This document shows, in pieces, positions 13,994 through 54,124 of a stretch of DNA of 64,000 nucleotides. The translations under genes and the position numbers were made by a program. Positions within the stretch are counted from its first letter, which is position 1; each line of letters starts with the position of its first letter. Location of the stretch: assembly GCA_025267735.1 (NCBI GenBank), contig CM046299.1:38268887-38332886 (forward strand). The letters are read 5' to 3'. Under the pieces are notes generated by a model. That model ran no database searches and was not told where the DNA came from. It was given only the letters and a program-made list of their open reading frames with translations. This DNA comes from Mactra quadrangularis (lineage: Eukaryota; Mollusca; Bivalvia; Venerida; Mactridae).

Positions 13994-14048
13994 ATGGATA
14001 TTTTTGTGTTACTATTTGTAACTTATTTTGACACAATTAAATGCACAG
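13994..14048 (+). CDS. Receptor A exon 1: signal peptide
   Basis: Encodes MDIFVLLFVTYFDTIKCT, a short hydrophobic leader, then donor GT at 14049. It ends in phase 1, like exon 1 of receptor B, and joins in frame to the Ig exon at 16424. It was too short to stand out as an open frame. Confidence 0.75.
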
Positions 14049-17000
14049 GTATGACTTTTCCGTTTTGTAAATTTATACATATAAAGTTCTTAATATAGTA
14101 CATGTTATATTGCAAAGGATGGTCGTATTATCCCAAGGCAAAAGGCCTTATTACCTTAGTTCTTCTTAAAAACGCGATTTAACAAATCGTAAATATTTGA
14201 ATATGTTATTATTAACAAATAAATAATAGTTGAGAAACAGATGGAATTCTTAAAAGCAAAATTTGTGAATAATGATCTGTTCAAATTTGACAATACTTCC
14301 TTCTATTGATAAATAACATTTTGTCTACAAGTTATTTGCTTGCTCATTAGTGTCCACTGCACAAATGGCCCATGTCGCTAAATAGCAATTACAGAGGTAT
14401 GTCAATAACTAAATATGTGTTCTAAAAACTGTGAGATATTGATATATATGAATGAGTGAGAAAAACGACCGAATAAACAATTGCCATGCCGGTTTTAGAC
14501 GCAATTATTTCACAAAAGACCTTGTATACTGTTTTAAAGAGGTAGTACTTACATATTTGCTAACAATGCGAATTGTTTTATTGTGTTTACGTTCTTGTTT
14601 TAGAAAGGCATTCAATATGTTATTTGAAAAAAAAACCCAATGGTTTGAAATTCATGGTAACTTTCTTAGTGTGTTGAAACTTTGGTATGCAAATCAAAAT
14701 TATTGTGTTAAGACGTCTCATGGAGTAACAGATTATGTCATGTATTAATTGGCAACAGATATTTCAAGTTAGTAAATCAAGCTCTACATTTTCATCTTGG
14801 TTTTTTTTCATGTTGCCTACTCTTTAGATGAAATTACTGTTCTGGTGTATTCATTTCAAATGTATCCCAGGTATATCATGTTTGATATTTTCAGATGATG
14901 TTGCAAATTGTGTAGATGCTGTTTTATATTTACAAGAACAATTAAATGTAATTAATATTTTAGTAGATAAATGCACATTTAAAAGAATGGGACTTAAAAT
15001 TTCACGATCGATGTCAGAAAAACGTAATCCTTAAGCCATCTTGCTAATGTACTTAAGGTCACAGCGTGAAAGGTAACAACATTAACAATTGTTTATCATT
15101 ACCTTATTTCTTTGCTTTAACATCATAATCAAACAATATATTAAATTCACAAAGGCTTTCATCTTCACAATGTTCCAATTTCAAATAGAAAATATCATAT
15201 GGTCCCATTCAAGGTGACTTTAGTAAACTAGGAAAATAAAGTATAACATTATGTTTTTGTTTTTTCATGAAATGAAAGTTAAGGAGCAGTAGCTGTGTTA
15301 ATCACTTATGTAAGTAAACTAGTACCTGGCAGACATCGACCAATATCCTAACAGGGACCATCTTTAATTTTGCTCCCCATTGGGTGTGATACCTCAAATT
15401 GTTGCAGTATTAACAAATTTCTGTAACCTTGTAAACTAACAGGTATAAAAAAATCTATGACTTTAAGATCAATGAAAACCAAGATCTCCATCGAGGAATA
15501 ATCAAAATAGCTTTTTTATGAAAAAATATTGATGCTGTCTCAATAATTTTCTTGAGCTATCATAAATCTAACAAAAAATATATAACCCATGGTAGTTCTC
15601 TGTTATAGTATCAATACTGATTTTTTCTCATTTACATCCTAACGAGTTCAAAATATAAAGTATAATTTTAGCATGATCTGCACAAAAAACCTAAACCAGA
15701 ATTTATAAATATTAATTCATATTTAATGAATCAGCAATGTAATAATTACATCAATTACCACCAAAAACGACACCAAGCATAACTTGGTATTAAAAATTTT
15801 CTGAAAACATAAAGAAGTAAAGTGGTATAAACGTCTCTCTATGAAATATTTAATGAATGGGAACGGAATTTGACTTTAGACAATCTCCGTTAACAGATAT
15901 CCTGTAGACCGCAGACGTATATGATTTCTTAGGCTCGCTTTAAGGGTCGCATCGAGATGACCTTTGTGTCGACCAATCTTTCCAATAGCTTTCATCTAGA
16001 CAAAATACTAAGTATGGCATATTGATTTCTTAATTTTATATTTTAAAACCGAGGTTAGCGAGCTGATTTGACGGTGATATTATTCATAGGCTGTAATTGG
16101 ATTGCTCTTGCGTGACGTAGGTCTACGATGCAAACAAGTTTCTAAACGTTATAATTGCGTCATGAACATTACTATGAAAAAATATTAGATTGAATTGGGT
16201 AATTCAGACAGTGAATCATCAAAGGAAACTTGTCACATTTTGCATTTGTAATGACATAAATATGCAAACTGCTCCCTTCATTTAGGTAGTCAAGCATGTA
16301 ATGTTCGATCAAGTAAAAATTAGTAATGAGTTTGGAGCAGCTAATTACCTAAGCATTTCGGCAATTTTACAAATTTATTACATTACAAAGTAGTTTATAT
16401 TATTGTATCTTTTACTTATTTAGTACTGACATTCAGTCCTCTTAAAACGAACTCAGATTGTCAGGACTGTATCATAGGCGAAGATAAGCAAGGAATCAAC
16501 ATTACTTGTGATGTTGATGATGATAGTATTGTTCCCATCGATGTGGTGATGACGATAAACGACGAAATACTTCAACAAATCAATGATGACTACGTGGTAT
16601 TTTTGACGTTGAATAGCTCCGAACATCATTTAGCTCAGCTGGAATGTATTGCTGTATATAATACAACTAATTTGACAGCACATGCTTCTATATATGTGAT
16701 CATAAGTAAGTGCACTATCTATACTATGTTATATCATATTTATTGTTTTGAACAATTAGTCATGTTATCATAAGAATGAATACTTTGAAACGGTATCTCA
16801 ATATTTCAGACTTCAGTACGTGTTTCCCCATAAACTGACGAGTCCATAATTAAAGCACAATAATATGCCATATCTACAATATTGATTTATTGTCGAATAG
16901 TTAGTTCGAATAGTCGAGGGCCTGCTCCCAGATCTGAAACATATGTTTTTTTTATCCGTCATTAGTTAGTGTTACGTCAAATGCACATTTGAGAGTCGAT

Positions 17001-20000
17001 CTATCAACTATCTGATTAAGTCGACCTATATTTAGATGGCTTATATCGCTGAATTGTTTCGGTGAAAAACTAGGTAAAGATGTACCCTTTTAAAGGGCAT
17101 TTTTAAACTAAACCTCGATACAAACATTTTCTTTGGCACAATTATTTCGTTATTTAAAGTATGGTAATTTTTTCAATGATCTGGTGCTAACTTGGAAGTC
17201 TGTTAAGACTCTAAAACTGAGTAATAAGCTCAGACAAAATTTTGCAAACTCTTTGCCGATATCTTGATTTATATCAAAGACACAACCGTAGTTTTAAATT
17301 ACAAAAATTTTCCCAATCAGTGTTGTAGGAAAATTAATATTTATCAATTTAATGCAGTAAAAACAGTATTAGTGAACTTTTCTACTTCATTGCCTATTGG
17401 TTGTGTGGAAAGGTTTCTTGTTGGACTGTATCTGTTCTTCGTATGGTTTCAGACTAATTTTTACATCATAATCCAATTGCTATGTTGATAATCCTCCGTA
17501 AATGGAGAAGTTGAAAGCAACGGCTTCTTACAGTCGTGTAATCGCCGATCGCGTTTATGAACACCAATTAGTCCAGCTAAAGCATTAGACAAAATTAATG
17601 ATTATGTTATATTGTTATTAAATTCTTATTTAAATTATTATTGAATCTTATTTAAAATGCTTCTTCAGTCGAACATAAAGCTCCTTCTGTAATTTTACCA
17701 AGTGAATTGATAGAAGGAAAATCGAACAATATTTCATGCTTAGTAGAAGGTCGGCGACCAGCCGCAAATAACATAACTATGTGGATTGATGATCATTTAG
17801 TCGAAACCACGGTCACCATACAAAAATCAACCATCATTGATACCCTGTACAATAGTTGGGTCACTGTTACTGAGATACAGCGAGCTTGGAATAAGAAAAA
17901 TGTAAAGTGCTGCGAGTACAACAAAGAATTTTTGACAGATAATTCCCCATGGTGCAGCAATGATATCGAAAATGTTATTAATTATATATGTAAGTATTGT
18001 TATGGCTTTCTGTGTCATTGTTTGTACTGTTATTTTCTTTATTAGAATGATATGCACTCAGGTGTTTTAATGTCCAGAAACCACTGCCCTTTATCAATGA
18101 AATATAAAACAATGTCGAATTTAACGAATTGACGATTGACGAGACCCAACCCTGAGCCCTTTTTATAAGGAGAAGAAAGCAACATAATTATAGTATGCAT
18201 ATAGGAAAAACCATGGAAGCATTGCTCAGACCGTACCAGGTTGTCATTATACGCATTTGCTATTGACGATAAAGTTAGTTTTTTACGGTCAACGTTTAAT
18301 TTAGGGTTTTATATCGGGTTTTAATTTCATCTAACTGTCTGACAAAGGAATTATGTCCGTCATTGTTCAGTAAAACGATCTTGCCCAACTCCTTAAAAAC
18401 AAGAATACTTTTGCACTCAGGCAAGCATCTAGAGCTATAATGGCTCTCTAACTTAGGATTTGTGATTTCTTTGTTCAGAGCCTTTTGCTGAAAATATCAA
18501 TAGAAGTAACTCATAACACGGCTGTTATCACTTTAATTATCTTACGATAATATTGAAAAAAAATGTTATACGTAAAATTGATTTTTTTTATAGTCTCACC
18601 GTCTAACGTAAAATTGATGTTAGATAAAGAACATAACATAACAGAAAATAGAACATTTATAATCATAATAGCTACTTGTGTAATAGAAGAGTCTAACCCA
18701 CTGTGTATTGCCACTTGGAATACATCGGATATAGAGATTTTGACAAGTGGTCAAGAGGAAATAATTCATAATGAGGAAACTATGTCTAAAACTTCTAAAT
18801 TTACGGCGTTTATGAACGTGTCAGCTGCTGACAATAAAAAAGTCATAACATGTTCTCCGAACTGCACGACCAAGTTTTCAATGCCAAGTAGCTCTGTGAT
18901 CATTAATTTGCTAGACTATGAAGGTAAGTAAGGTTTATTTTTGAGTCATTATATACGGTGCTGAAATTGTTAAATTTTGACAAACGTTTGCCTAAAATAA
19001 ACCTTTTTTAAACAGCAATTAATTGTAGTTTTCTGGATTATTAAAAACACGGGAAGATTTCAACCAACATTATATAAAATTGAAACAGTTTAAGGCTGCT
19101 ATACAATGTTTCTGTTTATACTGACTCATGACATTTTGGACATAATGTAATCGGAGGCATGAAACTATTTTAATGATGAAAAGGTTATTCAAAGATATTG
19201 CAAAAGACTTTCTCTCATAGTGATTTTACCTATTTACATTTTTACAAAGCGATCATAAGCGAATTAAAGTTCTAACAAAATTGCAACATAAATGTTTGTC
19301 TTAATACATATACACGTGTAGTCATAAGTCTGTCAATTGAAATGTATATGAAGATTTGTTTTGATATGTTGTTTAACTTCGAGTTATTGAGGGGTGTTGA
19401 ATTCCTATGCTTGACTTGTCCGACTCGTACTTGTATGTCTACGAACAAGTAATTAAATCAATGCCACTTGTCCGTGGGCAATTGATATTCAAGCTGTAAA
19501 TATACTAAATTACATAAATATCTAAATGCTTTAGTCAAATTCAAGAGTGAACTACACTGTATAATATTGTCAATGCATTTCATATTGTATAAATTATTAA
19601 TTACATTTCATAATTATATTTCAATATGTCTTGTTGAATATTTAAAGTCTTGACGAGCGCATTTTGACCCGGACAAGTATATTTTAAGATCTCATTTGTC
19701 CGTGGACAAGTGAAAAAAAACCTAGAAATTCCACCCCCTTGATATGTTTTTTTTTAACTTTATCAGACTAACCCGTTCAATCGAATGATGGTTTTGTAGC
19801 GCATAAAATATTTTAATTGCTAAAGCATCATTATATCTCATATTATTACAGAGATATTATTATTGAATGATACTATGGTACTTCTTATCTCTTTTACGGG
19901 TCAGAGATGTGGGGGTTTCATAAGGCAATTGACGTTAAACGTATGTATTCTTAAAACAGATTCTTGGTCTTAAATATTTCACAAATAATATGGCAGTTTA

Positions 20001-23000
20001 AAGTGAGTTAAGTAGACTCTTTATTATTTGATAAAAAAGTGACTGCTAAAATATTGGTTTGAATTACATAATAACGGTCATTCTTTGATGTATACAATAC
20101 AAGAGATAATACTGGTGCATATGTAAATAAATGTTTTTTAGATATCAAGAAGGAACTTTTATTTTCCTTTTATGGAATTAATTTAAGTTATCCAAATTTC
20201 AATAACGATTGCTACTTCTCAGAGTTTAAGATCAGTTTTTCAAAATAAGTTAATCTTATAAATTAAAAAATAAAATTATCGCAAACTTGTCAATTAGAAC
20301 CTTCATATATTTCTACCTATACTTGTGTTTTTCCCCTTCCTTCTAGTTGGTATGTTCAATCTTGTGTTTGTGCAAATATGGTATTGACAAAACCTATAAA
20401 GCATGATCTAATAAAAGTGTTGAAGTAGAATACAAATATGCCATACGGTGACAGATAAAAAGTCCATTTCTCTCAGGTTTCCCTATCTTTGTCCCATCTC
20501 TACACTGTACCTCGCTTTTACACATTTTCAATTCTCCTTTTTATTGATCACATTTTATAATTTTATACTTTTTTTTCGATTTGCTCATCTATCATTCTTA
20601 ATTATTTGAGATTTTGTTCTGCTTTGTTATGTACCGACTGTTTATTTATCAAAGTATTGCTATTTGTTTATCTAGTGTTTAATATAAATTGATGATTTGG
20701 TATTTTAGATGACGTATCAACTGTTGGAGATACAGATTTTACTACCAAAGAAACCAATACTGCCGAACCATCCAGTAATTATCAAATGTCTTTAACATAA
20801 TCCTATCCTCTCTCAAAAACCTTGGGCCATACTAACATTCTGTTCTTTGAAAATCTTTCACTGAGCACTATATACAGTTTTATTGCAACATTTATTTCAC
20901 ACGCTTAGGCACAACAACATCTACAAACTTAATACAGTTCCAAATCATGAGATTTATTATACTTCTATTGCATTCCCGTCGTTACTCAGTTGCTTTGCTA
21001 AAAACATATATGAATTATACAGCTTAATTTTGAATTCATATGACATGTTTTAAGGGTACCGACAAAAGGTAGCAGATAGAAACATCATATAATAAATGCG
21101 ACTTTTTATGTTGACTTATCTGCGTGCTTCGTGGTGCTTGTAATTTGTTTAATTGTATGTAGAAAGCATGTTTGTGTTATTATAAAGAGAAAACTTAAGC
21201 TAAATGAAAGCCTATGTTTGCATGTATAAATCTGTGAAATAGACTAAGTCATGTTGACCGAACTGGCCGCAAACTGTACATTGAGTATAAAGCTGTTATT
21301 GTTTGGGTTTAATTACATTGAATGTACATATATTTAACTGTCTTCAAACCGTGCCGGTCGCCTCTGTATCAAATTTTGACAGTTTGTTAAGCTATTATCT
21401 AATGTACACCAATAATATTTGATATTTTAGATGACACATCACCTAGTCAAAATGTAGACGTGTCTCTAACAGAAAAGAAAACTGGTAAGACATTTAGTTG
21501 TAATTTATAGCATTTTCATCAGAAAAACGAAGCCAACTATTGAAATAAAATTGCATCAAGTTTCAGAGCTTTGATTTAATAGGGAAGTCGTGTGTTTGTT
21601 TGTTTGTTTGTTTTGGTTTTACGGCGCACCAACACAGGAAGGTCATATCGCGCCGAAAGCAATTGATGATACTATTAATGCAACCGAACCATAATGGTTA
21701 AAAGTCTTATATTTTATGATGTATATTCATTTCTTTCAAAAAGTTAATTATCGCATATGATAGTATTGAAAAAAAAAAATCTCTGAGTGAGTTAATCTTA
21801 AAATGTTTGTCACGGATGTTTTTGAAAAGGGTTCGAATCCCACCCGTGGAGATTACACCCTTCTATAAAAAATTGACAATTATGTCGATTTACAGTAAGG
21901 CGCGCGAATAACTAGATTTTTTTTGCGTATTTCGTACGTATTTCGTAAGTATATGGCAAGTATAACGTGCGTACGAATCGCAGCGTATAAGCCGTACGTG
22001 CGTATAATTCGTATATCGCATCGTATCGTATCGTATCGTATCGTATGATCGTATTAATACATGGTATAAATCGTATGGTAAACATCGTATGAATGGTATA
22101 AGCGTCATCTTCGTATCGCATCGCACGTAAGACAAATATTAGCTCACGAAATATTGAATTATTATAATTCAACGGGTATTTTCCCGACATTAATTATTTA
22201 TTAATTGCCGGCGAGTGATTTTCACAATGAAATGGAAAATACGGACACCATAAAACTTGTCCATCATGAAAATCGCTTTTTGTCAGCAAAGAAGCAAGAT
22301 ATCATTCATCGGAAAGGAATGGCAATTTCTGATATAAGAATAAAGAAAATTGGCCTACATAGCATATAAGATGCTCGTACCAAGAAATAAAAAATATTTT
22401 GAAACGATACAGAAAACTGGCTCAGTCTCTCTCAAAAGATTGAAAAGTAAAGATAATTTATTTTCAGTTTCAACTGGTGTAATTTATATGTGGATCTACA
22501 TTTTTACATACATGTAGTGTCTTTAGTCTTACAGCATACATAGACTTACTATTCAATAGAAAATAAGTAAGCTACAGCTTTCGATGTACATGTACTATGA
22601 TATGTTTGTTTGTTGAATTTAACGCCATAGCAACACATCGTTTAGTTCATATAAAGGTGGTCAGTCAACCTACTCACTCCTACTGAAGTCTTAATCTCTG
22701 GATTAAGCTATTAACCAATTACTTAGTGCATGCTTTCGTCAGTGACTGACAACTGCCCTACATGATTACAAATCATTGGCAGGAGGGAGAATGGCTGTAG
22801 AAATAATTTCATGATCAAGCACCATGAAAGTATGCGCTGCCCAGAATCTAACCCACGATCAGTAGACTTGCATGCTACCAAATAAGCTAGCCGGGTGGCT
22901 ATGTACTATGATATAATTCAGGTAAAAAATAATAATATACGAGGGGTGATTGGAAAGTTCGAGGAATTTATTTATTAATGGTACATGGGATAACATAGGA

Positions 23001-26000: not shown

Positions 26001-29000
26001 GTTCTCCACACAGGAATATGAAAAGTTTATCGACTTCAAGATCTTGTTAAGATAAACACACTTGTACAACCTTTAGCAGCTATAAAATCTGCATATTGTC
26101 ATCTGAAATAATTAAAATGGGAATTTTAATGACATAGATCTAATCATACAAATAACATTCTAAAAATTCTGATTTGAAGATAAACATATTGCATATCCTC
26201 AGCTGAAAGCAACTCGGCTGGAAACAGATGTGGCCCAGCATTTTTAACGTTGGACTGGTATAATTAGCAACCCAGCTCTGTGTTGGTTTGAATCCCATCT
26301 AAAACCTACCCAGTTGATATATATCAATCCAGGATATGCTTGGTGAGTTTTCTGAAAATACTGTCATTCAATTTCTATTTATATTGTAATAGAAGGGAAG
26401 TTTTTTAATTTAATGTCACAGTAATTACCAGTTAATTAACATTATGGGAAGAAGGATATGTAAGCCGCCAGATAGCCCAGTTGCGAAAGCACTCTTTTTA
26501 TATACCAGATTATATACCGGTTTTATATACCGGATTATATGCACTTTACCAGTAAAGCGAGAGGTCCTAGGTTCGATTCCCAGTCAGACTGCATATTTCT
26601 GTCTGATATTTGACATCCATCGTCGGTCCATGACAATAACTTGCTCAGTTGAGAAACACTTGTAAACAAAATAAATGTTCCATAAACAGCCTGGAATTCT
26701 GAAATTTGAGACAAATTTCCAATTCACAGGGTAGTTTGTCACAGCCCTTACCTGTTCACATTATGGGAAGAAATATAGTGGCAGCATAGCTAAGTCGCAA
26801 GAGCACTCACACTGTGAGTAAAAGGTCCAGGGTTCGAGTCCCGGTCAGGCTGAATATTTTTCTTACCCCGTGATGTTAACAAATAAAGACATAATTAGTA
26901 AGGTAAAAAAAACACTTCTTAATGGGTCGAAATAATTGGGGACGAAAAATATTGAGCAAACTGTGAGACTGACGTTGTTAACACAGTTATATTATGCAGA
27001 CTACAATCACGTTTACCTTGTCGATCATTATTGATGAATTGTTGAATATTGACACATGTGACATGTCTGTCCATCGACTCCATCATGCGATTCGACAAGT
27101 CGTTTTTACATAAGAAATCTTAAGATTTCACCTTGTCTTCACCAAGCGACCACGTTGTTGTTTAGATATTGACGACTGTTGGTCATTATTGGCTGTCCCC
27201 GCGTCATTTCCCATTATTTTTGTACAGTGAAAGGTTCCAACTTGACAGACCTGTCAGTTGAAGTGTTTAGGTTGCCGGACATAAAATAACTTTCGGCTAC
27301 TTTTCGAATATGTACTAATCCGGAGGGCAAAATCATAACCATTGAGACTGATCCCGCCCACATTTATCATTGGAACCCGCCTTAAAATAATATCGATAAT
27401 CAAAGTGTTGAATGAGAACCGGTTGTAATTTGTGTATTTTTTATTGCATCATGGCTACCTAAGATATAGAGATACAAGCAAGTCGGAATGATCGCAAGAT
27501 ATATATCGTATCATTCGTATCGAACTAATGGTATAGTAAACAACCGAACGTATGGTATAAAACGTATAGAACGTATGGTATAAAACGTATAGAACGTATG
27601 GTATAAAACGTATATGGTAAGAACTTCGTAAAGATCGTAATTCGTATCGTACGCATTCGACTTTGGAAATGGTATAACGTACGAATGGTATGCGTATTGT
27701 CTTCGTATATGGTAAAGATCGTATTTCAACTATTACGCGCGCCTTACTGTACCTCCATTGATTAGATAAAAAGGTGAATTTGTCGACCTTGTGGAAGGGT
27801 AGATGAGTACTGGTTGTAAACAAGGGTCCAGGAAAGCTTAGTTTGTCGCGATGGACGTTGTGAAATGATTTAAACAGTGTTGTCACAAGTTTAACCCAGT
27901 AAAAAGCCTATAGAACTTATATACGGTGTAAGGTGATATGCTATGTAATATTTACTGTTAGTTGTTGTATTTCAGGCTTTGCTAAAAACTTGATCTACAT
28001 TATACTAGGATCAGGAGGTGGTTTAATGATTCTATCAACAATTGTTGTTGTAACAGTATGTATATACAGGTATGTATGATAGTCCTTATAATGATTTAAA
28101 ATTGAAGACTAACTGAGAAAAACTAACGTTTCAATGAAAATAAATTTTATTTTAGAAATGGATTTTTTTATTTAAATTGGCTGCATACTAAAAGGCGATC
28201 TTATTGCTTAAAGACGCATTATTTCCGCGTTCAAATGAGATATGTATGTATTTTATATGATATTTTTGGTCAAATTGTAAATGATTCTATTGGCGTTTAG
28301 ATAGCATGCTTACACTGTAAGATAGATGTCTTTTAAATTAATTTTTTGTTGCTTGAAACAAGAAGTTAGTTATGGGCAAAATTATTAATTTCTTTTGACT
28401 ACATGCAAGCAAATTAAAGAAAGCCATTACAAATTACATACATGTATTTTGTTCTTAGCAAGGGAATTGTTTCACTAACGCTATTTCAGCACAATTAAGG
28501 TCATAATGGTTATGCTATATGCTTTAAAAATTAAAAATAAATACTTTTTCCTTCACATTAGGCAATTGGAATAAAGCCATCTCGATTTAAGTTTTTTTTC
28601 AAACGGCTTGACATATCATTTTTAACGAACAACCGTGTCTATAAATTGTAGATCTAAGAAAAAAGATAGTCCCGAACATAAAACGAAAAGTTCAACAAAT
28701 GACACAAATAATGCAAACACTGCATATGATATGACTGTGTATGAGGAATGTGGTAAGGAACCAACACAGGAAGATAAACATAAACAACCACATGGTTTAG
28801 AAAACGAATATTCTGTAGCTCAGCATGAGAATACTGTCAATGCACCCAGTTCTGAAGACGGAGACATATATAATCATGTTAACCAGGATTGTGCAAAACC
28901 TATCCAAGATGACAATTATTCTCATTTACCGATAATGAATCAAAACCAATCAAATGCCATTGTCGATGAAACTTACTCACATTTAGCAAATCAAAATCCT

Positions 29001-40400: not shown

Positions 40401-40429
40401 AGGAAATTGATCTAAAAGTCTCTCTAATA

Positions 40430-40979: not shown

Positions 40980-41237
40980 TTAATCATTAACACATAGGTG
41001 TCCACCAACATATACATGAGACTGTTCTTCATTGACATAAATGTGTTTGTCTTCTTGTTCAATAGATGTACTGTTTTCTTCATCTGAAACTTCTACTGTT
41101 GGAGCAGCTGATTTACCAAACTCGACTTCGGTGTATTCAACTTCGGACTCACGATTTGCTAAAATATGTTTAGAAGCCTCGGGGTTGTTACCAAATACTA
41201 GATCAGCATACTCAAGTTGGCGTTGATTGTCAGGTCC
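40980..41237 (-). CDS. Receptor B exon 10: ITIM-bearing tail
   Basis: Acceptor 'ctgttttacag', phase 0, stop TAA at 40980-40982. Carries LEYADLVF, VEYTEVEF, HIYVNE and HVYVGG within 86 codons including the stop. Confidence 0.85.
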   Translation of the reverse strand, partial: GPDNQRQLEYADLVFGNNPEASKHILANRESEVEYTEVEFGKSAAPTVEVSDEENSTSIEQEDKHIYVNEEQSHVYVGGHLCVND

Positions 41238-44200
41238 CTGTAAAACAGATGTATCAGTTTGAAACCATGCATGATGGCTTCAGCTGTACTAGTGCGTCGG
41301 ACTACGGTCGACTTCCTTAGTCGGTAGTACGCCACTCCTCTGAGGGGTCGTGGGTTCGATTCCCAGGTGGTGTTTGGTCGTAAAAATAATCTACGACCAC
41401 TATCCTCCTACTACTGATTCTAAATCATGTAAGGCACTTGTCAGTCACTGACGACTGTATGCACCTAGATACTGTAGATAAAGGGATTCTATATAACAGG
41501 GATTTGTAACGAAGTGCTTTTTTAATTTGCTCAGTCGTCACTGTCTATAAATGGCTGAAGCATGCTGTAAAAACTATTCCAGAGTTTAAAAATTTGATTT
41601 ATGTTTTTGAACATGCCTTCCATGCAACTTGTGAATGTTTCTTAAGTTTTTGACAAAAAGTGTCGCAATTATGACCGAAAATATGACTTTAGGTGATGTA
41701 AAATGGGGCTATAAATGGCAGATCGGCGGGAAAATGCATTATTTTGTGAAACAGTCTGTGAGTGTATTTTACCTCAAAATCATCTAGAAACACATTTTCC
41801 CTAGCATTTATGTCAATTTGAATGGTACTGGTACGAAATTTCATGTAAATATCTTTATTTAAACTTGTTTTCCGTATTGGCCGAAATAAAAGCGACGACG
41901 GTGAAATTTGATGAAAATCTATAACATTTACCTATCGTTACAAATCCCTGTTATATAAAATCCCTGGTACAGTGTAGTTTGAAATGGTGTCTTTGCAAAG
42001 AAATCCTTGATTTTATGGAATTGTCTCGAATGTGATTTAGAATAAAGATTATCAACAAACACATACATGTAATTACTTAAAATTTAGGTTGCAATGTACT
42101 AGAAAATGTCATGTTATATCTTTGATAACTTAGTTACCAGTAATATACATGTAGCTACTAAAGTGAAATGTTAGGACTACTATGTACGTGATTGCTATTT
42201 CCACTGATATAAATCCTTGAGATAGGAGAAACATTACAGCTTTGGAGGTTTTTGCAGTGACTTTTTCAAGATGTTTTGGGTTCGAAATCGGGTCTACTTC
42301 CCCTACCAAATGTCCTTAAAAGTTTGTGCCATTTATTTCATTTTTTGACAATTTCAAAAATGTTGTTGAGAAATTTCATATGCGTAAACTGTTTCAATAG
42401 TTGAATTTTCAGGTTAAAATAATAATAATAATATTTATTTGGCATAGTGTACACATAGCATAATTACATTAACATATATCACAGCATGTTGTAATTAACC
42501 ATGAGACGCAAATATTCCTTTAAGAAAGTTGCTCAGTTAGTGGAAATTATCGGAAGTATTGAAAACGAAGAAAATGAAACTCCCCAATATCCTTTTTGTC
42601 GCTTTTTACCCCGTAAATTAGGCCCTGAAAAGTTTCCCCTGAAGTTGAACATATAAACATGCTGTTTTGATAATGTTATGAGGTTACATGGTCAATAACA
42701 TGTTCCCACAAGTTAAGAAAGTTTTTTTCCCAACTTGTTCCCACATTTAATGTGATATTTTCTAATCGTACGCAAAAGCTAGGAGAGGTGATTTTTTTTC
42801 TAATCGTTCCCACAAGTTAGGAGAGTTGGTACTTTTTCTAACTTGTTCCCACAACTTACGAGAGGGTATAATTTTTTATTACCTCTCGTAAGTTGTGGGT
42901 ACGAGTTAGAAAATCCAACTCTCTTAGCTGGTGGGAACAAGTTAGAAAAACATCACCTCTGGTAAGTTGTGGGAGAGAGTTAGAAAATATATCGACCATG
43001 TCACCTCCATGCTTCCGTAGTAATACGGTGTTAGGTACCTCATTTCTCGGAGGCGGCTCTTGTTGATCACCAATCTCATTATTTACATCATTAAGAGGTA
43101 TATCATTTTCTTTTGCTTAAAAGTAAAACATACTATGATGAACAAAAACTTTGATAAAATTATATACAAATGTACATATACACAATCATAAATGAATTCC
43201 CGCGATCCGGTACATTGGCGACAGGCATGGTCCCGAAGCAAACACACTTTATATAATTTTAAATATGTAAAGTGTTTTTACTTCGGGACCGCGCCGGCCG
43301 TCTGTGATCCGGTACTTCTTCGTACCGAACCATAAGCAGGGTATAAAGCAATCCTTGTTTTTCATCAAACTCTTCTTTGTAGCCAAAACATAGAAAACAG
43401 CCAATTGAAATATAATAACTATTGCATTTCTGTATACAAGAATTCCCCGTTAGACTGTAATTGTTTATTCTGAATCCCCTGCACAAATTATTTTTGAAAA
43501 AAACCTAGCATACAGTTCGATTCATTATTTTGTGCGAAGAATATGAAGCCAATAATGGCACTAAATATTTTTTTATATGCGTAATATGTATAAAATAATA
43601 AGCGGCATACCTTTCGTGTTTCTACACTTGCATGCAATAACAATTGTTACGACGATAATCAGCACAACTCCACCTGCTATCGAAGCAAGTATTTCAATCG
43701 GAAGTGGCCAGAAGCTTTTAGAACTCTCTTCATTTCCCGGTACACTTTCTTGATCATCCGATGTCGTGTCTATAATAGAACATAAATATTATTAAAATGC
43801 AATCATCATTACTTTAATCGTTCCAATATCAGGCATTCTACGTAGAACACTATGTATTAATAAGGTAAGATTTGGTTTTGTTTGACCTGGTACTGTAAAA
43901 CTCTTTGCATCTTATAAACAGTCAAATAAGTGCAAGCGAGTTTTGTGAGTGATAGATCATACGATATATGCGTATATAGGCAAACTAATTCTGTCACTAC
44001 TTGAGATGCAAAGCAGTCTTTTCAAAACACTTTGATAACCGTATTCGAAGCTAGAAAATTTAATTTGTTGAATTTGGTCGAGATTGACAAATTGCGTTCA
44101 GCCTTATGCAAGTTCATTACTAATATCTTTATATTGAATATTATTATAACATAATATAACTTTATATAATTAATTGTACAAAATGGTCTTAACTTCTTAA

Positions 44201-47200
44201 TGCAATGGTAGTTTGAAAATAATACCCATGAAGTTTTTATTTATTGAACTTTATATTGCATAACTTAATACATTTCATCTAAACAGCTGATAAAGGCACC
44301 CGGCTAGCTCAGAATGTGTCACACAAATCTACTGACCAAGGAGTTGTGGGTTCGATTCCCAGCAGGAATACTGTCGTGCAGTTAGGTCATGAAATAATTT
44401 CTACGGCCATTCTCGCTCTTACCACTGATAGACTGTTAACTGCTGAATCCAGAGAATAAGTGAGTAGGTTGACTGACCAATGTGATAATTTCATCCATAC
44501 AATATGTTGCTATGACGTTGAAACCAAATAAAATGATTACTTGTACTTCGGACGAGCAGGTTCACATTCCGCATTCACAAATTATTAGAAAATGTAATGT
44601 TTATCATAATAACACCACATCCCTTGTTTTAAAATTGAATTAATCTATGATAATTACCCCTTATATTGATGGTTAATGTTTCATTGTAACATCCGAAGTT
44701 ATTGCAAGCTTGACAATAGAATTGAAGAATGTCCAAGGAGGTGTTGGCATGGAACTTCATCGTACAGGTGTTCGTTTTGTCGGTAATGTCGGGTGGAGGA
44801 TGAAGAACACTAAATGCAGGAGGATCATATGGCGCAGTGGTGTCTTCAGTGCAATTGACTTGTGTATTGTTTTCATTATACCACGAGATAGTTGCTGGAG
44901 GGTTGTTGATACTTGAACAGGTAATACCAATAGTATCACCCCTCTTGACATAAACTTCTCTAGATGTGTTGAATTCGAGTTGTCCTGGACGTTCTGACCA
45001 ACATGAAAAACAGATGGTACAAAATTACATTACATTATTTGCTACATATTTTTAAGTTGATAAGGTGGATATAATTATTGTTGCTTTTGAATTGGATTCA
45101 ACCCAACAAGAAGCTGGCTATACAATCATTATCAGTCCAATGTCATAACCAATCGGCCATGCTTGTTCATGAGTGAGTAAAAAAGCGAGTCCTCTTCTTA
45201 CGTATATATACTCGGCGACCGAACTGCACCGATGGTATATTTATTTGAATATGCCAAGTATATCAATTAAATGTGAAAAGACGAACAAGAGTTTACGTGG
45301 CAACGATCAGTACCATCAATTTGTATCAATTATACAAGGAAAACAGTTGTAAGACATGCTTTAATTACCACGTTAATGATTTAAGCAATATAAATTCAGA
45401 TGACGCTATGTTACATTGCCATATTATATGGACTTGTATTCCATTGGACTCAGTACATATATTTTTTTAAAAATACAGATCTAAAAAAACAACGGGGACA
45501 TAAATGCATCTAAGACATCTAACCGTTATGACCCTCATACAAAATGGCGACGTCACCAACACTACTGGAAAATAAACTCTAAGCATAAAGATACTCATGC
45601 GCCAAGTTTTATCATAGATGGTTTGTATGTTAACTTTCATCCGGTTTCTGACCAATAAAACCGATCAATAAATCCAAAGAAAATCAGCACAAAGGTATCT
45701 TCATTTTACTATAATAACTTACGTGGCAGACGAAATGACAAACTTTCTCTGGGCAATTTTTTAAACCTGTCTTCACATTTCGGTATGCAAGTAACAACGC
45801 CAGTTTTAACTTCCATTGTCATTCTTATAAAGACACCAAATGTTTTGTTTTCTTCAGCGTTAGTATTGTCAACAATATGGCTGACAACTTCACCATTCGT
45901 TTCCCATGTGACGTCACATTTTGGATAAGAATGCGTCATTAAACATCTGGCTCTCAGGAGATAGTATGTGTTGTTTTCTATGCTCGTGTTATCTATGTAT
46001 AGGGAAACATTATCCGGCGGATCTGTAAGGACAGAATAATATGGACTTATTTATACCAATCTGATTAAAACCCGATCTAATATTTTCTGCTCGTCTACTC
46101 GTTTTACAGGATATATGTTTATGGACATTGTATTTATACAAATGTAATATGAATAGATCTGAAAGTAATTACGTTTTGTACCACATTTGATTGCCTACAA
46201 ATGTCACAAAAAAAGGAACTTAGTCATTATAACGTGCTACCTAGATTGAAACAACGAGATTTCAGTCGTTTAACCAGATTTTTGTATGGACAAATTTAAA
46301 ATTACACTTTTTCATTGTCAGAGGGAGATCATAACTTTTTTTATAAACCGGTTTTTTAAATAACTTAGCAACAGAGTGTTGTTCAATAAGACCAATCCAT
46401 GAAAAATGATTAACATGTTGTAATGAATGAAAGATAGCAAGTTTTGTAATTATTTCAAAAGGTTTACAAAAGTATCATTGATTGTAACTTGGCAAAATAC
46501 GGGAAGTTCTACTTTCAATTTTCTTTCCTCATAGTACAACTTAATCGACGTCATACAAAGCTGTGTTGGAGCGATTTCATGGCGTTTCATTTATAACTTC
46601 TTGCTGCAATTTGGGGTGGCCGGAAAATGATCATAACTTTCTTATATCTGATCGAATTATGTTTTATGTACTTTTAAATTTAAAAACTTTAAAAACTTTT
46701 AAAAACTCTTACTTACAGTGAAACTTGGCAGTCTCATTTTTTGAACAAATTGTGTGGGAATCCCCTTCAAATCTAAAATTATATTCACAGCATTGTACTT
46801 GTTTTTGATTCCAATGACGATGGAACTCCGTCAGTGTTATGTAGCTGTTGTATGACTTAGATGTAATGTTGTACTCGTCAATATGTTTTACATTTTCAAT
46901 TTTCATATTATCAATCCATAGACTTATGTTTTCTGCAGGCGGTCGTCTATCTTCTACCATACATTTAATATCAATCGTTTCACCTAGTAACGGTGCGACT
47001 TTGTGTACTATAACATAAGAGTGTTGAATGTCATTTTGAAAGCATGTTTTTTTTTGACAATTAAATATGCCAATTACTACATAACTAGAAGGTACAGAAG
47101 GACGGAGGTGACATGGTCGAAACTTTCTAACTTGTTCCCACAACTAACATGATGTGATATTTTTTTTAAACTCGTTCCCACAAGTAAGGAGTTACGCTAT

Positions 47201-50200
47201 TGTTTCTTACTTGTTTCCACAACTTACGAGAAGTGACATTTTTTCTAATTCGTTCCCAGAACTAAGGAGAGTAGGTAATTTTCTAACTTGTTCTCTCAAC
47301 TTATGAGAGGTGATACATTTTATTTGAAGTTGTTAAACGTCATTGACGTCACATGGTGGTGCGTCGTTTTATTCGTCTCAAATCTTGTAGTGTAATTATG
47401 AAGTATTGTCAATTATATTGATAATTCAATTTTAATTTTTTTAATTTTCATAATACATGAAATCCGACCAGTAATCTATATTTAACCCTGAGTGTATAAT
47501 TGTTAACGCTTGAATGTTACGATAATAATCAAATTGCTAATAGCGCTGCAAGACATGCGGTTTTGATTGAGCATACAAACACGGATTCCAACAATAAATT
47601 AAAGCGATACGATGATATTCTTCAACAATCCATCACAGAAATAGTAAATCTAAACAGACATGTATGCAATTCAGTTGCACAAAATGCATCATCAGCGTGG
47701 GCATATCAACGCGCGAGGCGGACTATTTGAATTGCGCGGCCTAATGAAATCCTCCGCCGCGGCTTATAATTAGGGTTTGCTGCAGTCTGCTACTAAACAT
47801 GTGAAACCGAAATGTAAAATAATAAGTCATGACCGACTTGATGATATTGTCGTGCCGAGAACTGGAGTATTTCCCGAGGCTTGGAGCGGGACTATTGGAA
47901 TTCTACATTATGGGCATGGCAAGCTCAGTTGGTAGCACACAAGTCTGTCTATTAAGTTGTAAGTTCGATTCAAGGTCAAGGCATACTTTCGTGGAGCTTG
48001 ATCATGACTCATTAAATAATTACTACATATTTTTTTTCTTCTACCACTGTTTCTAAATCATGTAGGGCATTTGTCAGACACTAGCGGAAGTATGCGCTTA
48101 GTTACTGGTTAACAGCTAAATTCAGATATTTAGTCTATCCAGAAATGGCAAGTAGGTTGACTTACCACCGCGATATGACCTATAATCAACTATGTGTTAT
48201 GGCAATGAATACAACAAAAAACATGGGGAGTATTATTCGGGTAAAATAATAACTCACCCTTGATAACATATATTTTTGCCGCTGTAGTCAATGGTTTGAT
48301 TGTAGCATAGTTTCTCGCTGAGCAGATCAGTTCATGATCATGATAGCTATCATTTAGTGTAATGGTTGCCATAATTTGATCATCACTAGTAAGAAGTGAC
48401 TCAGTAATCGTGACGTCATCCAGCAGTAGAGTAACATTGTAAGGTTTTGAACCACCATTTACTTTACACGTGACGTCAATCTCTGACCCATCATTCCCAG
48501 TAACGCAATTAGTACAAAAATCTGCTGTGGTTAATGGATTTAGAACAACACTCGTCGGAGAAACTGAAATTAGAAACATATTGGATTTAGAATTAAGAAA
48601 ATGCTCATAATATTATGCTCTTTGTATTTATTCGAAACGCATCGGTCATTCACTACTAATAACCTCGGACACCATTTTGGAACTACTTTTGCGTCACATC
48701 CACTTACAAAATGCTTTGACCGGTATTGAGCTAACAAATCCACAATCGTTGAGGCGATTACAAACATCCCGATTTAGTCCATAAATTTGAATAACACGAT
48801 TCAATGATATCACTTAACAAATATTTAGTCACAGGAAGTATGAAAAATGTGTTAACTATGGTGGCTGATTTATGCCGCGAAGAAACGAAAAAATGAAAAC
48901 ACGAAGACACGACAAATACAACAATGCGTGTTTTCGCCTTACATCTGTCGTATCTTCGTCTTTTCGATTCTTCGTGGTAAAGAAACGAAAAGACGAAGAT
49001 GTGATAAACTATGGATTTGTCGTGTTTTCGTCCTTTATCTGTTGTATTTATTTTGTCGTGTGTTCGTTTCTTCTCGGCGAAGAAACGAAGCAACGAAAAG
49101 ACGATGATACGACAAAGTATGGATTTGCCGTGTCTTCGTGTTTTCGTTTTTTTCGTTTCTTTGCGGCGAAGAAACGAAAAAAACGACATGGCTTAAATCA
49201 GCCACCATAGTAAACAAAGCCTCGTGTAGTTAAACGACAAGAACATTCATCGGATGTGATTCGCCCCGCGGCTTTAGCACGAACACAATATTCTTGGTGG
49301 ACCCCTCCCCACGAATTCTTCCGACTTCATTCATTTAATGAATGGTTGAGGTGTTCCGAATGCATGATTTTGTTGTGTTCTTACCAGGAGAAATAACTTG
49401 TACAGCATTCGTTCTTTTATTCACTCCTTTATTGGATGTACACTGCACGGTATAGTTCCCTTTATCAGAAGTCTGAAAGTTCTTAATTTTCAAGATATGT
49501 TCCATGTCTATAGATTGATTCTCATATTTATGACCAGTAACACCCATCTTGCATCCACTTACACATTTTTCACCGTGGTACCAATATCGAACATATATAT
49601 CATGATTGTTGTGTACAGTTGTTGAAGGATAGTAACCTAGTTCGACATCCTGTCCAATTATAACAGGCTCTGTCCGTAAATACAGAAGTCCACAATCTTT
49701 GAGAACTGAAAATAGCACACTTTTCATTGGTCCAACTTTATAACACATTATACTTTAATTGAAATGTCTGTTGGCTGCTACCAAAGGCTACCATTGGCAA
49801 AAATTTGGAGGCATATGTAGTGTACAAAGATAATAATGATGGCAGAAGAAATAACTAAAGAGAAATTCCGAATGATAATTAATACTTGTACATGGTGTAA
49901 TCTGAATGAGTTTGTTCAAAAAAGCATTACTTTAGGTCACGAAAACTACAATTATATATTAAATGAAGTAGAAACTGTAGCTTGTTTGGGATAACTATAG
50001 ACAATCTAAACGACATTTTATATTGACAATGTCTCATGATAATCTAAACAATTATGCGAAACCATTCTATATCATTATTTGTTACGCTTACGATTAAAAC
50101 ACTATTACCTATTGTTAAATTTTATTCAACTGGCAGATATGCATTTTAACCAGGCTGATTTAAATCAACCGTGAATACAGAAATATTGTAGTGACCATTT

Positions 50201-53200
50201 AAACCAGTAGAGGTACGAGCCGCCGACAGATGAATAAAATTAAAAAATACCAAAACACTACTCATTTCAAGACTGTACAGGTTAAATGTTTACATAGCTC
50301 ACCTGTTAACTCTAACGACACAGAGTTTGATATGCAACTCTTTCCGTTTGCTGTATATTTAGTATGATATTCAACTTCATCTAACTTTAGTGTGGCATCA
50401 AAAATAATCAAATAATAATGTCCGACGTTGTCTGAATACATATTAAATTCAGAACCATGTTTCAGCTCCGCCCATGGGTTACTCCCTCCACGTCGCTCCC
50501 ATTGGACTTTTTCTTCTGAACTATTTTCAGCCGGAACAAACTTCAAAGAAACTTTCCGGTCTTCTACTGCAGGTTCAATCACTCTTAGGTGTCCACACTT
50601 GTTGCCAGCGGTAGTCACTAGAAATAATTACAAGTATGATCTATGCAAATTGACCTGAGAAATATTAAGATCAATTTTCTGTAATCACCAAAAAATTGTT
50701 GCCACTCATAGTCACAGATTTTTGTCTGTGAGTCATTGAGAAAATCATCAATATTTTGTACTGCCCTATACATTGCCATGGAAACGACTGATTAAGTTCA
50801 AAATAAAACAATGACAGTGGCTACATACTTTGATTAGAAAGATCCCATTTAAGTAACATTAAGAAAAAAATGTTATGATTGCATTGTAAGTAAGATATAA
50901 TTTAATTTCCTTTTGTACTGAAAATTTATCCTAGTAATGTTTATTTATTCCGAAATATGGACTTGAAACCCAGACTTGAATTCAATTTTTGCGTGGACTG
51001 GTAATTTCCTATGAAAGAAATAATGAATCTCCAGCATTTCTGACACATCTAGTTTTTTTCCAAGAAATTATAAGATTATACTTTATATCGATGTTAAAAC
51101 ATTTTTCTGCTTTTCATAAACTGCTTGACTTAAGATACATTAAATGCTTCGATTACTACACTACATGTAGTTTATTACTTGCGTAATAAATTGTTATTTG
51201 TTTTAGTCTACCTATCTTTTAGTGAAATTTTCACCACCGTAGGACATTTTTGTTAATGCAAATCTAATGGTTGATTCATGTAGCTGGATGCCTCCTTGAT
51301 ATCGCACGGGGGATGTATCAAATCTAAGTCGCGTTTAAGTCCGTAATGTAGGTCAAAGGTCAACTAGGTTCATTTATTTTTTATTTGAACCTATGCCCTT
51401 TATACTGAAATTTCAAGAAATTTAATCGGTAATGTGGAGATTTTCTTGTTGAAAACTAATGTATTATGTTTAACTTTATTTTTATGAAAGAAATGAGTGT
51501 TTGATTACATGATTATTAGCATTTTTGTCGCGGAAATAGGTGACAATAAAAACCGTCTACAATAGTTCAACTAGTAGAACTACAGTTAGTGTTTATGGTT
51601 TAAATCTACTTGAATTGTGTTTATTGATGCTTCGTGACCTTTTAGTAGACATTTAATACTCGATAACGTTAAAATAATGTCACAGTGGTGTAAAATTAAG
51701 AGCGAGTGGTATAACTGTTTTAAGAGATTTTTTGACAAATGTGGCAAACTTTTGAAAATGCAGTTCATTATTTTATTCACGTTGCTAGATGACTTACTGA
51801 GCCACATAGAGAATGTTTAAAAACCTATTTTGTGATAAAAAAAATGAGTTTTTAGGTCAAAGGTCAACACATTGCATTTCCTTATTATCAAAGCTATTTG
51901 ATCATAGTACAGTATATTACTTGCAAAAAGTCAAGTAAATTTATAATGGAAAACTTTTAAAATACGTTCAAATAGTTCACAAGATTTTTAAATGCGTTTG
52001 GTTACATGATTACGTCCCTTTATGTAATGTTTGTCGCGTAAATAGGTAAATATACAGCTCCCATTGAGCTCAGTAGGTAGCACGCTAGTCTGCTGCTCGG
52101 GATTTCTTATTTTATATCTATTCCCGCGCAAAGCATACTTTCATGGAGTTTGTTCATGAAATGATTTTTATGGAAATTCTCCCTCCTACCACTGATTCTT
52201 AAATTATGTCAGTCACTGACGAAAGTACATGCTTAGTAACTGGTTGAGAACTTAATCCAGATATTGAGCTTTTCTAGGACGGCCGTGATATGACCTTTAC
52301 ATGTGATGCTACGGCGTTGGACCCAACTAAACGGGGAAATACACAATAAATCAACACTTACATGACAAACATTGAGTTTAGAACATATTTCGATGTCTAT
52401 GAAATGTTTGTAAAATGTATCATAATCTTAAGTTAAGTTAAATCATAATTACTGCGTAGTCATTTTTTTGAAAGTCACCTAACCAGCGCGTTGGACCGTA
52501 AATCGATGAAATTCATTAAATGCTAGAGGAAATCGTGACTAACTTAAATCAAAATTGCACATAGTCGCTGTGGACAGTATAACGATCTAACCATCCAAAA
52601 AAACACAAAATAGGCAGGCTAACGATAGAACAGCGAGGAATAGCTAATGGGTTGTTAAAATGGATGGCGCGACAGCCCTCACCGCAAAAGCGACAAGAGA
52701 ATTACTACATGACAACATCATCACGCTGATGTGCATACCGCCGAAATGTGTAGCTTAACATAGAATAACACGCATGGGATAAATTGAACCGCCGTGTACG
52801 TCGTGGTGTTGCAGCCCAACCCCTAACTGAGCCACGCGGAAGGATTGTGGGCGAGTGGGCAGGAATATGTCAGAATCTTTTCCATCAGTATAAGAGATCC
52901 ATTAGAACGCAATGCCAAACGGTTGCTAACAGCCATGGATGCCACACATGTTATTAGAGAGAGAATCGTTAACAAATACTCATTTTGTTACTTTGACATG
53001 TTCACACCCTGTGATGTTTTTATTACTTGTTAAATCTTTTGTTTTATGTTATGAAATAAACCTAATAATAATGATCCGTCTTTAAACTATATTTGCTGAA
53101 AATTTTACTTAAATCGGACTGGCACTTACTTAGATACGAACCCAAATATACATGTATACTTATACGTTTTGTTAAGTGTATGTATTCCTATTGAATATTA

Positions 53201-54124
53201 TTAACCGTGTAGAGGTTAATGAAGTTTTAAAAAGATCCAAGTTTCCAAGTTTGGGATGAATATCTTTGATAGTATTGAAATTTGTAAAAATGTTAACCTT
53301 GATTTTGGATGTTTCCTAAGTAAAAAAGGGACAAAACTCCTCAAACAGTGGAGCCAGGGTTATGGGCCGTGAAAGTAAGGTGGAAGTAGTGATGATGAAT
53401 AAGTATTCCAAGTTTGAGTTGAATATTTTTGATAGTATTTAAGTAATTTAAATTTGTAAAAACTTTAACCTTGATTTGCAACGCCAACACCAACGCCACC
53501 CCAAACGCCGACGCCGACGCTCGGGTGACAGTACAAGCTCCAATTTTTCTTCGAAAAGTCGAGCTAAAAATGACAAATAAATATATGCTGAAGATATCCA
53601 GTAACATTTTGATTAGCCCGTGTGGATAGCCTTGTCAATAGCGTTTTTTACTTTCAATTCAATGGATTCTGGGTTCAAATCCCATGTAGACACTATATGT
53701 CTTTGTGTAGTTTGATATGGTGTTTCCTTTGCAAACCGCTGTTCTAAGTCACCGGCGACTGCATAAGGTTTAGCACTTGTTTAAAAGCTTTGAGTTAGGT
53801 ACTTTGCAGCCTCGCAAGAGGCAATTAGTAATTCGACTTACAGGCATGATGTGACAAAATTTGAAAATTTGCGGCACACATCATTATGAAATAGAGGCTT
53901 GCGTTTTGACAGATATTATTGGACAATTCAGTATACCCATGATAAATGACACGCTATCTTAAACTAGTAGGAGTAATGATATTAAGCTAAAATTTAAGGT
54001 GGCGTATTCATCTAGCGAAAAACAAAGGCGAAAGGACAAAATATAAGTAAACAAAATTACCTGCTAATGGAAAATATTCCAATAACAATATCAAAGATAT
54101 CACAAACATATTAACACCGGCCAT
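40980..54124 (-). CDS. Ig-superfamily membrane receptor with ITIM tail (receptor B)
   Basis: Ten exons join in frame to 808 residues: 54124-54061, 50617-50303, 49705-49385, 48563-48258, 47007-46717, 46022-45723, 44993-44658, 43769-43611, 43115-43039, 41237-40980. All introns are GT-AG; the first eight are phase 1 and the last is phase 0. Order: signal peptide (1-21); Ig-like domains D1-D6, one per exon (22-126, 127-233, 234-335, 336-432, 433-532, 533-644); a short acidic stalk; TM helix (about 668-690); basic CKCRNTK; and a ~115-residue tail. The tail has LEYADL (Y733) and VEYTEV (Y758), both fitting the ITIM consensus and 25 residues apart, plus HIYVNE (Y790, a YxN Grb2-type motif) and HVYVGG (Y799). 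D3-D5 are homologous to the three Ig domains of receptor A. The ATG has A at -3 and G at +4. An inhibitory surface receptor recruiting SH2 phosphatases is the likely class (inference). Confidence 0.88.
41295..42030 (+). repeat. SINE-like repeat split by a MITE
   Basis: The left part has a B-box-like 'gtgggttcgattccc' and 'gtcagtcactgacgactg'. Sequence resuming at 41966 ('acagtgtagtttgaaatggtg') resembles the continuation seen at 53690 ('tgtgtagtttgatatggtg'). The inserted element is 41482-41965. Confidence 0.65.
41482..41965. mobile_element. MITE with 31-bp terminal inverted repeats
   Basis: Left end AGGGATTCTATATAACAGGG and right end (reverse complement) AGGGATTTTATATAACAGGG continue through 'atttgtaacga'; only one base differs in 31. 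No coding sequence. It lies in receptor B intron 9. Confidence 0.85.
42678..43010. mobile_element. MITE with GAGGTKACATGGTC ends, copy 1
   Basis: Inverted ends around 'aggttacatggtca' and 'tgaccatgtcacct' enclose alternating inverted units of 'tctaacttgttcccacaac' and 'ttacgagagg'. It lies 30 bp from receptor B exon 9, in intron 9. Confidence 0.75.
43039..43115 (-). CDS. Receptor B exon 9: juxtamembrane tail
   Basis: A 77-bp exon (phase 1 to 0) encoding KENDIPLNDVNNEIGDQQ and EPPPRNE, with acceptor 'tacttttaag' and donor 'gtacct'. It is needed to keep frame between the TM exon and the last exon. Confidence 0.75.
43611..43769 (-). CDS. Receptor B exon 8: stalk and transmembrane helix
   Basis: An acidic Ser-rich stalk (TSDDQESVPGNEESSK), then the hydrophobic ILASIAGGVVLIIVVTIVIA and basic CKCRNTK. 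Acceptor 'attatag', donor 'gtatgc'. Confidence 0.85.
44297..44530 (+). repeat. SINE (family A)
   Basis: Head ACCCGGCTAGCTCAG, B box GTGGGTTCGATTCCC, tail 'tgttgctatgacgttgaaacc'. In receptor B intron 7. Confidence 0.85.
44658..44993 (-). CDS. Receptor B exon 7: Ig-like domain D6
   Basis: Phase 1-1, 336 bp. Classic Ig features: GDTIGITCSSINNPPATISW and LQFYCQACNNFGCYNETL, with extra cysteines in between. No counterpart was found in receptor A. Confidence 0.85.
45723..46022 (-). CDS. Receptor B exon 6: Ig-like domain D5
   Basis: Phase 1-1, 300 bp. The CLMTHSYPKCDVTWE / VVTCIPKCEDRF cysteine pattern matches receptor A exon 4. Acceptor 'ccttacag', donor 'gtaag'. Confidence 0.88.
46717..47007 (-). 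CDS. Receptor B exon 5: Ig-like domain D4
   Basis: Phase 1-1, 291 bp. IDIKCMVEDRRPPAENISLW and VQCCEYNFRF; the closest exon between the two receptors. Acceptor 'gttatag', donor 'gtaagt'. Confidence 0.9.
47104..47322. mobile_element. MITE with GAGGTKACATGGTC ends, copy 2 (partial)
   Basis: Begins 'ggaggtgacatggtcga' and contains the same 'ttctaacttgttcccacaac' units as 42678-43010. The far terminal repeat is absent. Confidence 0.7.
47511..47785. repeat. Dispersed repeat, copy 2
   Basis: Shares several 14-16-base blocks with 38940-39175 in the same order. The 76-codon frame across it is not supported as a gene. Confidence 0.55.
47912..48190 (+). repeat. SINE (family A)
   Basis: Head GGCAAGCTCAGTTGGTAGCA, body 'catgtagggcatttgtcag', tail 'gcgatatgacct'. 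Located in receptor B intron 4, next to exon 4. Confidence 0.85.
48258..48563 (-). CDS. Receptor B exon 4: Ig-like domain D3
   Basis: Phase 1-1, 306 bp. DFCTNC, then IDVTCKVNGGSKPYNVTLLL and HELICSARNYA. Homologous to receptor A exon 2, including the CxxC pair. Confidence 0.88.
48855..49211. mobile_element. MITE with ACTATGGTGGCTGATTTA ends and a gaagaaacgaaa core
   Basis: ACTATGGTGGCTGATTTA at 48855 is inverted at 49194-49211. The core is a low-complexity mix of 'cgaagaaacgaaaagacga' and its complement. It produces long basic or Phe-rich open frames on both strands; I regard these as artefacts. It lies in receptor B intron 3. Confidence 0.8.
49385..49705 (-). CDS. Receptor B exon 3: Ig-like domain D2
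   Basis: Phase 1-1, 321 bp. Best classical Ig signature in the gene: FQTSDKGNYTVQCTSNKG (DxGxYxxxC) near the end. Acceptor 'attttcag', donor 'gtaaga'. Confidence 0.88.
50109..50249. mobile_element. Palindromic MITE (TTATTCAAC type), copy 1
   Basis: 'attgttaaattttattcaac' at the left is mirrored by 'tgaataaaattaaaaaat' at the right, with 'ctgatttaaatcaac' inside. Related copies are at 55677 and 63774. In receptor B intron 2. Confidence 0.7.
50303..50617 (-). CDS. Receptor B exon 2: N-terminal Ig-like domain D1
   Basis: Phase 1-1, 315 bp. A divergent V-like domain: a Cys near the start (NKCGHLRV), a Trp (VQWERRGG), and a Cys near the end (GKSCISNSV). The canonical DxGxYxC is replaced by VEYHTKYTANGKSC. 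Acceptor 'atttctag', donor 'gtgagc'. Confidence 0.82.
52057..52345 (+). repeat. SINE (family A)
   Basis: A head remnant (TTGAGCTCAGTAGGTAGCAC), body 'gtcagtcactgacgaaag', tail 'gtgatatgacctttac' and 'gctacggcgttggaccc'. Confidence 0.85.
52769..52957 (+). pseudogene. Tc1-like transposase C-terminal fragment
   Basis: One frame reads HAWDKLNRRVRRGVAAQP, RIVGEWAGICQNLFHQYKRS and QTVANSHGCHTCY, then stops. This matches the usual ending of Tc1-like transposases (W.LERRVR..., E W..IPQ, S...R...V..A.GGHT.Y). The upstream catalytic part is lost. Confidence 0.75.
53220..53575. repeat. Dispersed repeat ending 'gtcgagctaaaaatgac'
   Basis: Two similar segments ('ccaagttt(g)...gatagtat', near 53238 and 53408) are followed by 'caacgccaacaccaacgcc', 'gacgccgacgctcgggtga' and 'cttcgaaaagtcgagcta'. 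I recognise this ending from bivalve repeats (memory, not searched). Confidence 0.5.
53615..53790 (+). repeat. SINE-like fragment
   Basis: A B-box-like 'gggttcaaatcccat' follows a degraded A box. Downstream 'tgtgtagtttgatatggtg' matches sequence at 41970. Too diverged to place in family A or B. Confidence 0.5.
54061..54124 (-). CDS. Receptor B exon 1: signal peptide
   Basis: ATG at 54122-54124. Encodes a 21-residue hydrophobic leader (MAGVNMFVISLILLLEYF...) and ends in phase 1 with donor 'gtaatt'. It joins in frame to D1. Found by matching phase and leader type. Confidence 0.78.

Follow-up and report, generated by a model that had tools for sequence, protein, structure and literature searches.

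Two genes that encode proteins with immunoglobulin (Ig) domains lie tail to tail in a window of 64,000 nucleotides (C7:38268887-38332886 of the 979 Mb genome of Mactra quadrangularis), and their arrangement raises the question of what kind of receptor pair a bivalve would keep in this form. Ig receptors that come in activating and inhibitory pairs are known chiefly from vertebrates, with an ascidian parallel. Our analysis leads us to favour, with moderate confidence, the interpretation that the window holds a unit from a cluster of related genes for paired cell-surface Ig receptors, in which gene B is of the inhibitory type and ectodomains and tails recombine.

Exon structure and paralogy of the two genes

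Gene A, on the forward strand from 13994 to 29198, encodes 582 aa: behind the signal-peptide exon come three exons for Ig domains, a pair of short stalk exons, a transmembrane (TM) exon and a single tail exon. Gene B, on the reverse strand from 54124 to 40980, encodes 808 aa and has six Ig exons between its signal-peptide and TM exons, with a short cytoplasmic exon ahead of the one for the tail (Table 1). Every Ig exon of both genes is in phase 1-1. The initial annotation had described a tail-to-tail pair of paralogous Ig receptors on opposite strands, and exon structure, splice phases and shuffling comparisons confirm that description. It had also equated the three Ig exons of A with D3, D4 and D5 of B, in order and phase, and this is borne out by shuffle Z scores of 12-15 for A_D1/B_D3, 32-35 for A_D2/B_D4 and 16-17 for A_D3/B_D5, against at most 6.6 for the other pairs of the nine Ig exons; similarity over D3-D5, the measure on which that annotation had staked its claim beforehand, thus exceeds that between unrelated Ig domains. 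Of the nine exons, four exceed the cut-off of a Pfam Ig family, another three match one with a score under the cut-off, and A_D1 and B_D1 match none.

Several repeats accompany the genes. Minisatellites of 36-39 bp with a common motif occupy B introns at 42758-42988 and 47124-47315, one of them adjoining the cyt1 exon, and the last intron of B carries a tRNA-Arg-like match (41283-41374) that lies on the forward strand, opposite in sense to B, and may be a repeat derived from a tRNA. A retroelement frame resembling RNase H and reverse transcriptase lies between the two genes (35493-36605, forward strand). Elsewhere in the window are a Pao/BEL-type retroelement frame (7615-10563, reverse strand) with Peptidase_A17, DUF1759 and aspartyl protease matches, Tc5/CENP-B-type transposase DNA-binding domains (648-1241, reverse strand) and an array in which a 180-bp unit is repeated 6.8 times (59016-60235).

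Table 1 Exons of genes A and B (window positions) and related copies on C7
Feature	Position	Strand	Remarks
A signal-peptide exon	13994..14048	+	similar exon also in copies A1 and A2
A Ig D1	16424..16705	+	homologue of B D3; phase 1-1; no Pfam Ig match
A Ig D2	17669..17989	+	homologue of B D4; top Pfam match C1-set, 22.7 bits (cut-off 21)
A Ig D3	18594..18923	+	homologue of B D5; C2-set_2, 15.4 bits (under cut-off 21)
A stalk exon 1 (tentative)	20709..20774	+	95% identity to copy A2
A stalk exon 2 (tentative)	21431..21484	+	88% identity to copy A2
A TM exon	27976..28069	+	93% identity to copy A2
A cytoplasmic tail exon	28652..29198	+	10 Tyr; five YxH[LV]; one ITIM-pattern match (STYAHV)
B signal-peptide exon	54061..54124	-	
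B D1	50303..50617	-	Ig-like by pattern, no Pfam Ig match; 57% identity in P0001
B Ig D2	49385..49705	-	missing from Mactra antiquata model P0001
B Ig D3	48258..48563	-	
B Ig D4	46717..47007	-	top Pfam match C1-set, 24.6 bits (cut-off 21)
B Ig D5	45723..46022	-	C2-set_2, 23.1 bits (cut-off 21)
B Ig D6 (I-set), membrane-proximal	44658..44993	-	
B TM exon	43611..43769	-	
B cytoplasmic exon 1 (cyt1)	43039..43115	-	phase 1 to 0
B tail exon	40980..41237	-	two ITIMs, LEYADL and VEYTEV (Tyr 25 apart), and YVN
Copy A1	C7 cluster	+	signal peptide, D1-D3
Copy A2	C7 cluster	+	signal peptide, D1-D3, stalk, TM, A-type tail
Hybrid H	C7 cluster	-	A-type D1-D3 upstream of B-type TM, cyt1 and tail
B'	C7 cluster	+	remnants of B D2-D5; D4 broken by stops; lacks D1, D6 and TM
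Lone signal-peptide-like exon	C7:38253844	-	

The cluster on C7 and its hybrid gene

When the whole genome was searched with B_D4 as query and all 11 of 11 candidates were scored, six places were found, all of them within 165 kb of C7 (38150981-38315891). The tBLASTn check for further cluster members that the initial annotation had recommended, carried out over C7:38120001-38382000, recovered copies A1, A2, H and B', so that the cluster contains A-type ectodomains at four places, one of them in the hybrid H, and a B ectodomain that is broken. In A1, A2 and H the ectodomain exons read through in open frames and have splice sites, and the stretch from A2 through the TM exon of H is a collinear copy of the window from A through the TM exon of B. 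No TM or tail exon of A1 was found within 24 kb, and tblastn over the 262 kb examined gave no second copy of B D6. Two exons depart from their counterparts: D1 of A2 (C7:38179318-38179596) appears to end in a GC-AG donor (gcaagt) in place of the GT seen in A1, H and window A, and B D4 is missing about eight first-strand residues that are retained in B' and in the Mactra antiquata protein P0001.

With GT-AG sites at its exons, H can be read in a single frame from D1 to the stop codon (459 aa), in which A-type D1-D3 are joined to TM, cyt1 and tail exons derived from B. The collinear copy of B reaches the equivalent of window position 44595, ending just before D6, and the next match, from 38208430, corresponds to window position 20397 reversed, just before the first stalk exon of A. 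With breakpoints beside D6 and the first stalk exon, the junction falls between the D6-TM intron of B and the D3-stalk intron of A, two phase-1 introns, and the frame is kept; the junction stretch contains no N in the contig. Judged from these positions, H apparently arose through inversion between phase-1 introns. Its signal-peptide exon is unsure, the nearest being 41 kb off and none close by. Because both of its ITIMs lack the -2 residue (PWYTDL, DEYTEV) and the YVN end is gone, H may be decaying; its tail exon differs from that of B at 20 of 206 positions (0.097), against 266 of 2672 (0.100) in the non-coding flank.

Two other Ig-rich regions appeared among the matches listed in a PF07679 search. 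A dense one-strand run of I-set exons at about 35.76-36.13 Mb of C5 forms a large, unrelated Ig array, and I-set matches on C2 at 43.74-43.79 Mb (forward strand) and 48.42-48.47 Mb (reverse strand) have identical scores in mirrored order, which suggests that a large segment was duplicated in inverted orientation or repeated in the assembly.

Relatives, tails and divergence of the copies

The nearest protein relatives of A and B are three hypothetical proteins of Mactra antiquata, ACF0H5_012578 (P0001), ACF0H5_012584 (P0002) and ACF0H5_012577 (P0003), which appear from their sequences to be members of the same receptor family, so that the family comparison spans two genomes. P0001 (707 aa), the sole match to B among 6792 candidates, lacks D2 and shares 51% identity with B over 83% of the length of B (51% over the 698-column alignment), with both ITIMs retained. 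Among 4583 candidates, A matched P0002 and P0003 at 59-62% identity. The ectodomains of these two are 88% identical over 272 aa and their tails are unrelated: P0003 has a B-like ITIM tail, and P0002, an incomplete gene model with D3 doubled, a short unrelated one containing YVDM. Closely related ectodomains on differing tails thus occur both in P0002/P0003 and in window A/hybrid H. The near-consecutive locus tags of P0001-P0003, and the equal length of the contigs on which they are recorded, indicate that the pair is probably neighbouring in Mactra antiquata too. In a tree of the common three-domain core, A-types and B-types split first (100/100) and the A-types then group by species (Mactra antiquata 89/84; window species 80/94, drawn open), which places the A/B split before that of the two clams and points to expansion or homogenisation within each of them.

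Two ITIM-pattern sites were found in each of window B (P 0.004 against 5000 shuffles), P0001 (P 0.004) and P0003 (P 0.008), which marks them as candidate inhibitory members by sequence pattern. The A tail holds six YxxL/I/V sites in 182 aa; by its tyrosine gaps no canonical ITAM spacing was noted, and neither a charged TM residue nor an ITAM adaptor was identified. This tail also includes one match to the ITIM pattern, and that of copy A2 includes two, so that A is not to be classed as activating. The suggestion that these are paired immune or allorecognition receptors is supported in part, by clustering, differing tails and ITIM-pattern sites. Homology of the A tail to any other tail was rejected (Z -1.0 to 0.7).

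Among six concatenated ectodomain pairs dN/dS was 0.52-0.92, with single domains from 0.25 to 1.64; positive selection was sought and not found, the ratio being below 1 in all six. Ectodomain exons are not clearly better conserved than their own introns. In three of the six pairs they are more diverged (A1-H, 72/939 vs 48/1418, P 5e-6; A1-window A, P 0.019; H-window A, P 0.1), and in the other three less so (A2-H, P 0.043; the remaining two without significance). By contrast, the tail exon of A is better conserved than its neighbouring intron, with a dN/dS of 0.39 and 26 of 547 exon positions different against 61 of 511 in the adjoining intron. The 78 informative sites of the A copies are divided 15/49/14 among the topologies and fall into 31 runs where 42.8 were expected (P 0.0007), so the copies look mosaic, as from exchange between them.

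Interpretation and alternatives

If the window is indeed a unit of a paired-receptor family, the six-Ig ectodomain of B would bind a ligand, a Src-family kinase would phosphorylate its two ITIMs, and an SHP-type phosphatase with tandem SH2 domains would dock on them and damp the activation of haemocytes, where the receptors probably act. A-type members, with the common D3-D4-D5 core as ectodomain, would be read out through other tails, which in window A offers YxxL/V sites in number. Copies that duplicate, exchange segments and undergo inversion at phase-1 introns would keep pairing ectodomains with new tails, and a recognition surface could thereby be shifted from one signalling outcome to another.

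In vertebrates, the SIRP, PIR/LILR, KIR and FcR-like families carry near-identical ectodomains on inhibitory and non-inhibitory tails within one cluster, with exchange between copies and one Ig domain per phase 1-1 exon. The clam genes share the related ectodomains on differing tails, the clustering, the exchange and the exon phase, but belong to a protostome and come without an identified charged TM residue or ITAM adaptor, and no orthology is claimed. A review describes CgIgR, CgIgIT and CgIgIT2 of Crassostrea gigas as haemocyte Ig receptors with tyrosine motifs that are expressed in haemolymph (PMC11999971). By that description they resemble the clam proteins as bivalve receptors with more than one Ig domain (CgIgIT2 has five), a single TM segment and a tyrosine immunoreceptor motif, and differ in being presented as single molecules and not as a tail-to-tail cluster with swapped tails (PMC11999971). 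The fester/FcoR genes of the Botryllus schlosseri fuhc locus are likewise adjacent and paired, with reportedly plastic output and tails bearing ITIM, hemITAM or core YxxI/L/V motifs; FcoR has a V-type Ig, a sushi and two C2-type Ig domains, whereas clam A and B have no sushi exon and are paralogous partners (PMC12065747). A bivalve cluster of the A/B kind was not found described in the titles and abstract openings of the open-licence literature searched. If our interpretation is true, the paired-receptor design arose in a protostome too, as a clustered bivalve family with unrelated tails and a tandem-ITIM tail kept in two clams; it would provide concrete genes for haemocyte restraint and for discrimination of self from foreign or cancerous cells, and would show how exon phase and inversion let receptors switch output.

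We consider it unlikely that A and B play no part in immunity and are ordinary Ig proteins of cell adhesion or neuronal guidance whose tails dock SH2 domains. Adhesion and guidance proteins (Axl, CD166, SYG-1, Lutheran) tie with immune ones among the fold-level matches of a weak fold model, and adhesion proteins such as PECAM-1 also have tyrosine motifs, but guidance genes do not usually expand in clusters, have their tails replaced or show such poor conservation of exons, and the searches returned just one relative for B and two for A. It seems rather improbable that these are allorecognition or self-recognition receptors, with A/B ectodomains so polymorphic that they tell haemocytes what is self, for example against foreign or transmissible-cancer cells. 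A solitary clam is not known to have a fusion reaction, and in this one assembly all the concatenated pairs have dN/dS values under 1. What speaks for self-recognition, besides the mosaic look of the A copies, is the resemblance of clustered pairs with ITIM and other tyrosine tails to the Botryllus FF/FcoR pairs (PMC12065747). That only A and B work, with A1, H and B' as debris and the tail change a meaningless one-off, is very unlikely: the broken and incomplete B', the tailless A1 and the H tail with its lost ITIM consensus and flank-like divergence are set against open, spliceable ectodomains in A1, A2 and H and the independent presence of A-type ectodomains on two unrelated tails in Mactra antiquata.

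A wider extension of the paired-receptor interpretation is speculative, and we give it little credence as a whole: inversion and exchange between tail-to-tail units would act as a switch moving phase-1-bounded ectodomain cassettes between ITIM and non-ITIM tails, A1 would perhaps be a second cassette spliced to the tail of A2, and the arrangement would vary among individuals as a heritable, perhaps allorecognition-grade repertoire, with the D4-type domain C1-set-like outside vertebrates. Domains of the C1-set are generally regarded as a mark of jawed vertebrates. C1-set is the best match of B_D4 and of the D2 domains of the A copies, above the cut-off of 21 bits in B_D4, window A, H (23.4 bits) and A2 (21.8 bits) and below it in A1 (20.4 bits) and P0001 (18.3 bits); P0002 and P0003 gave no C1-set match at E<=0.01. 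With a two-row profile of the D4-type domain, the top PDB matches were antibody Fc chains.
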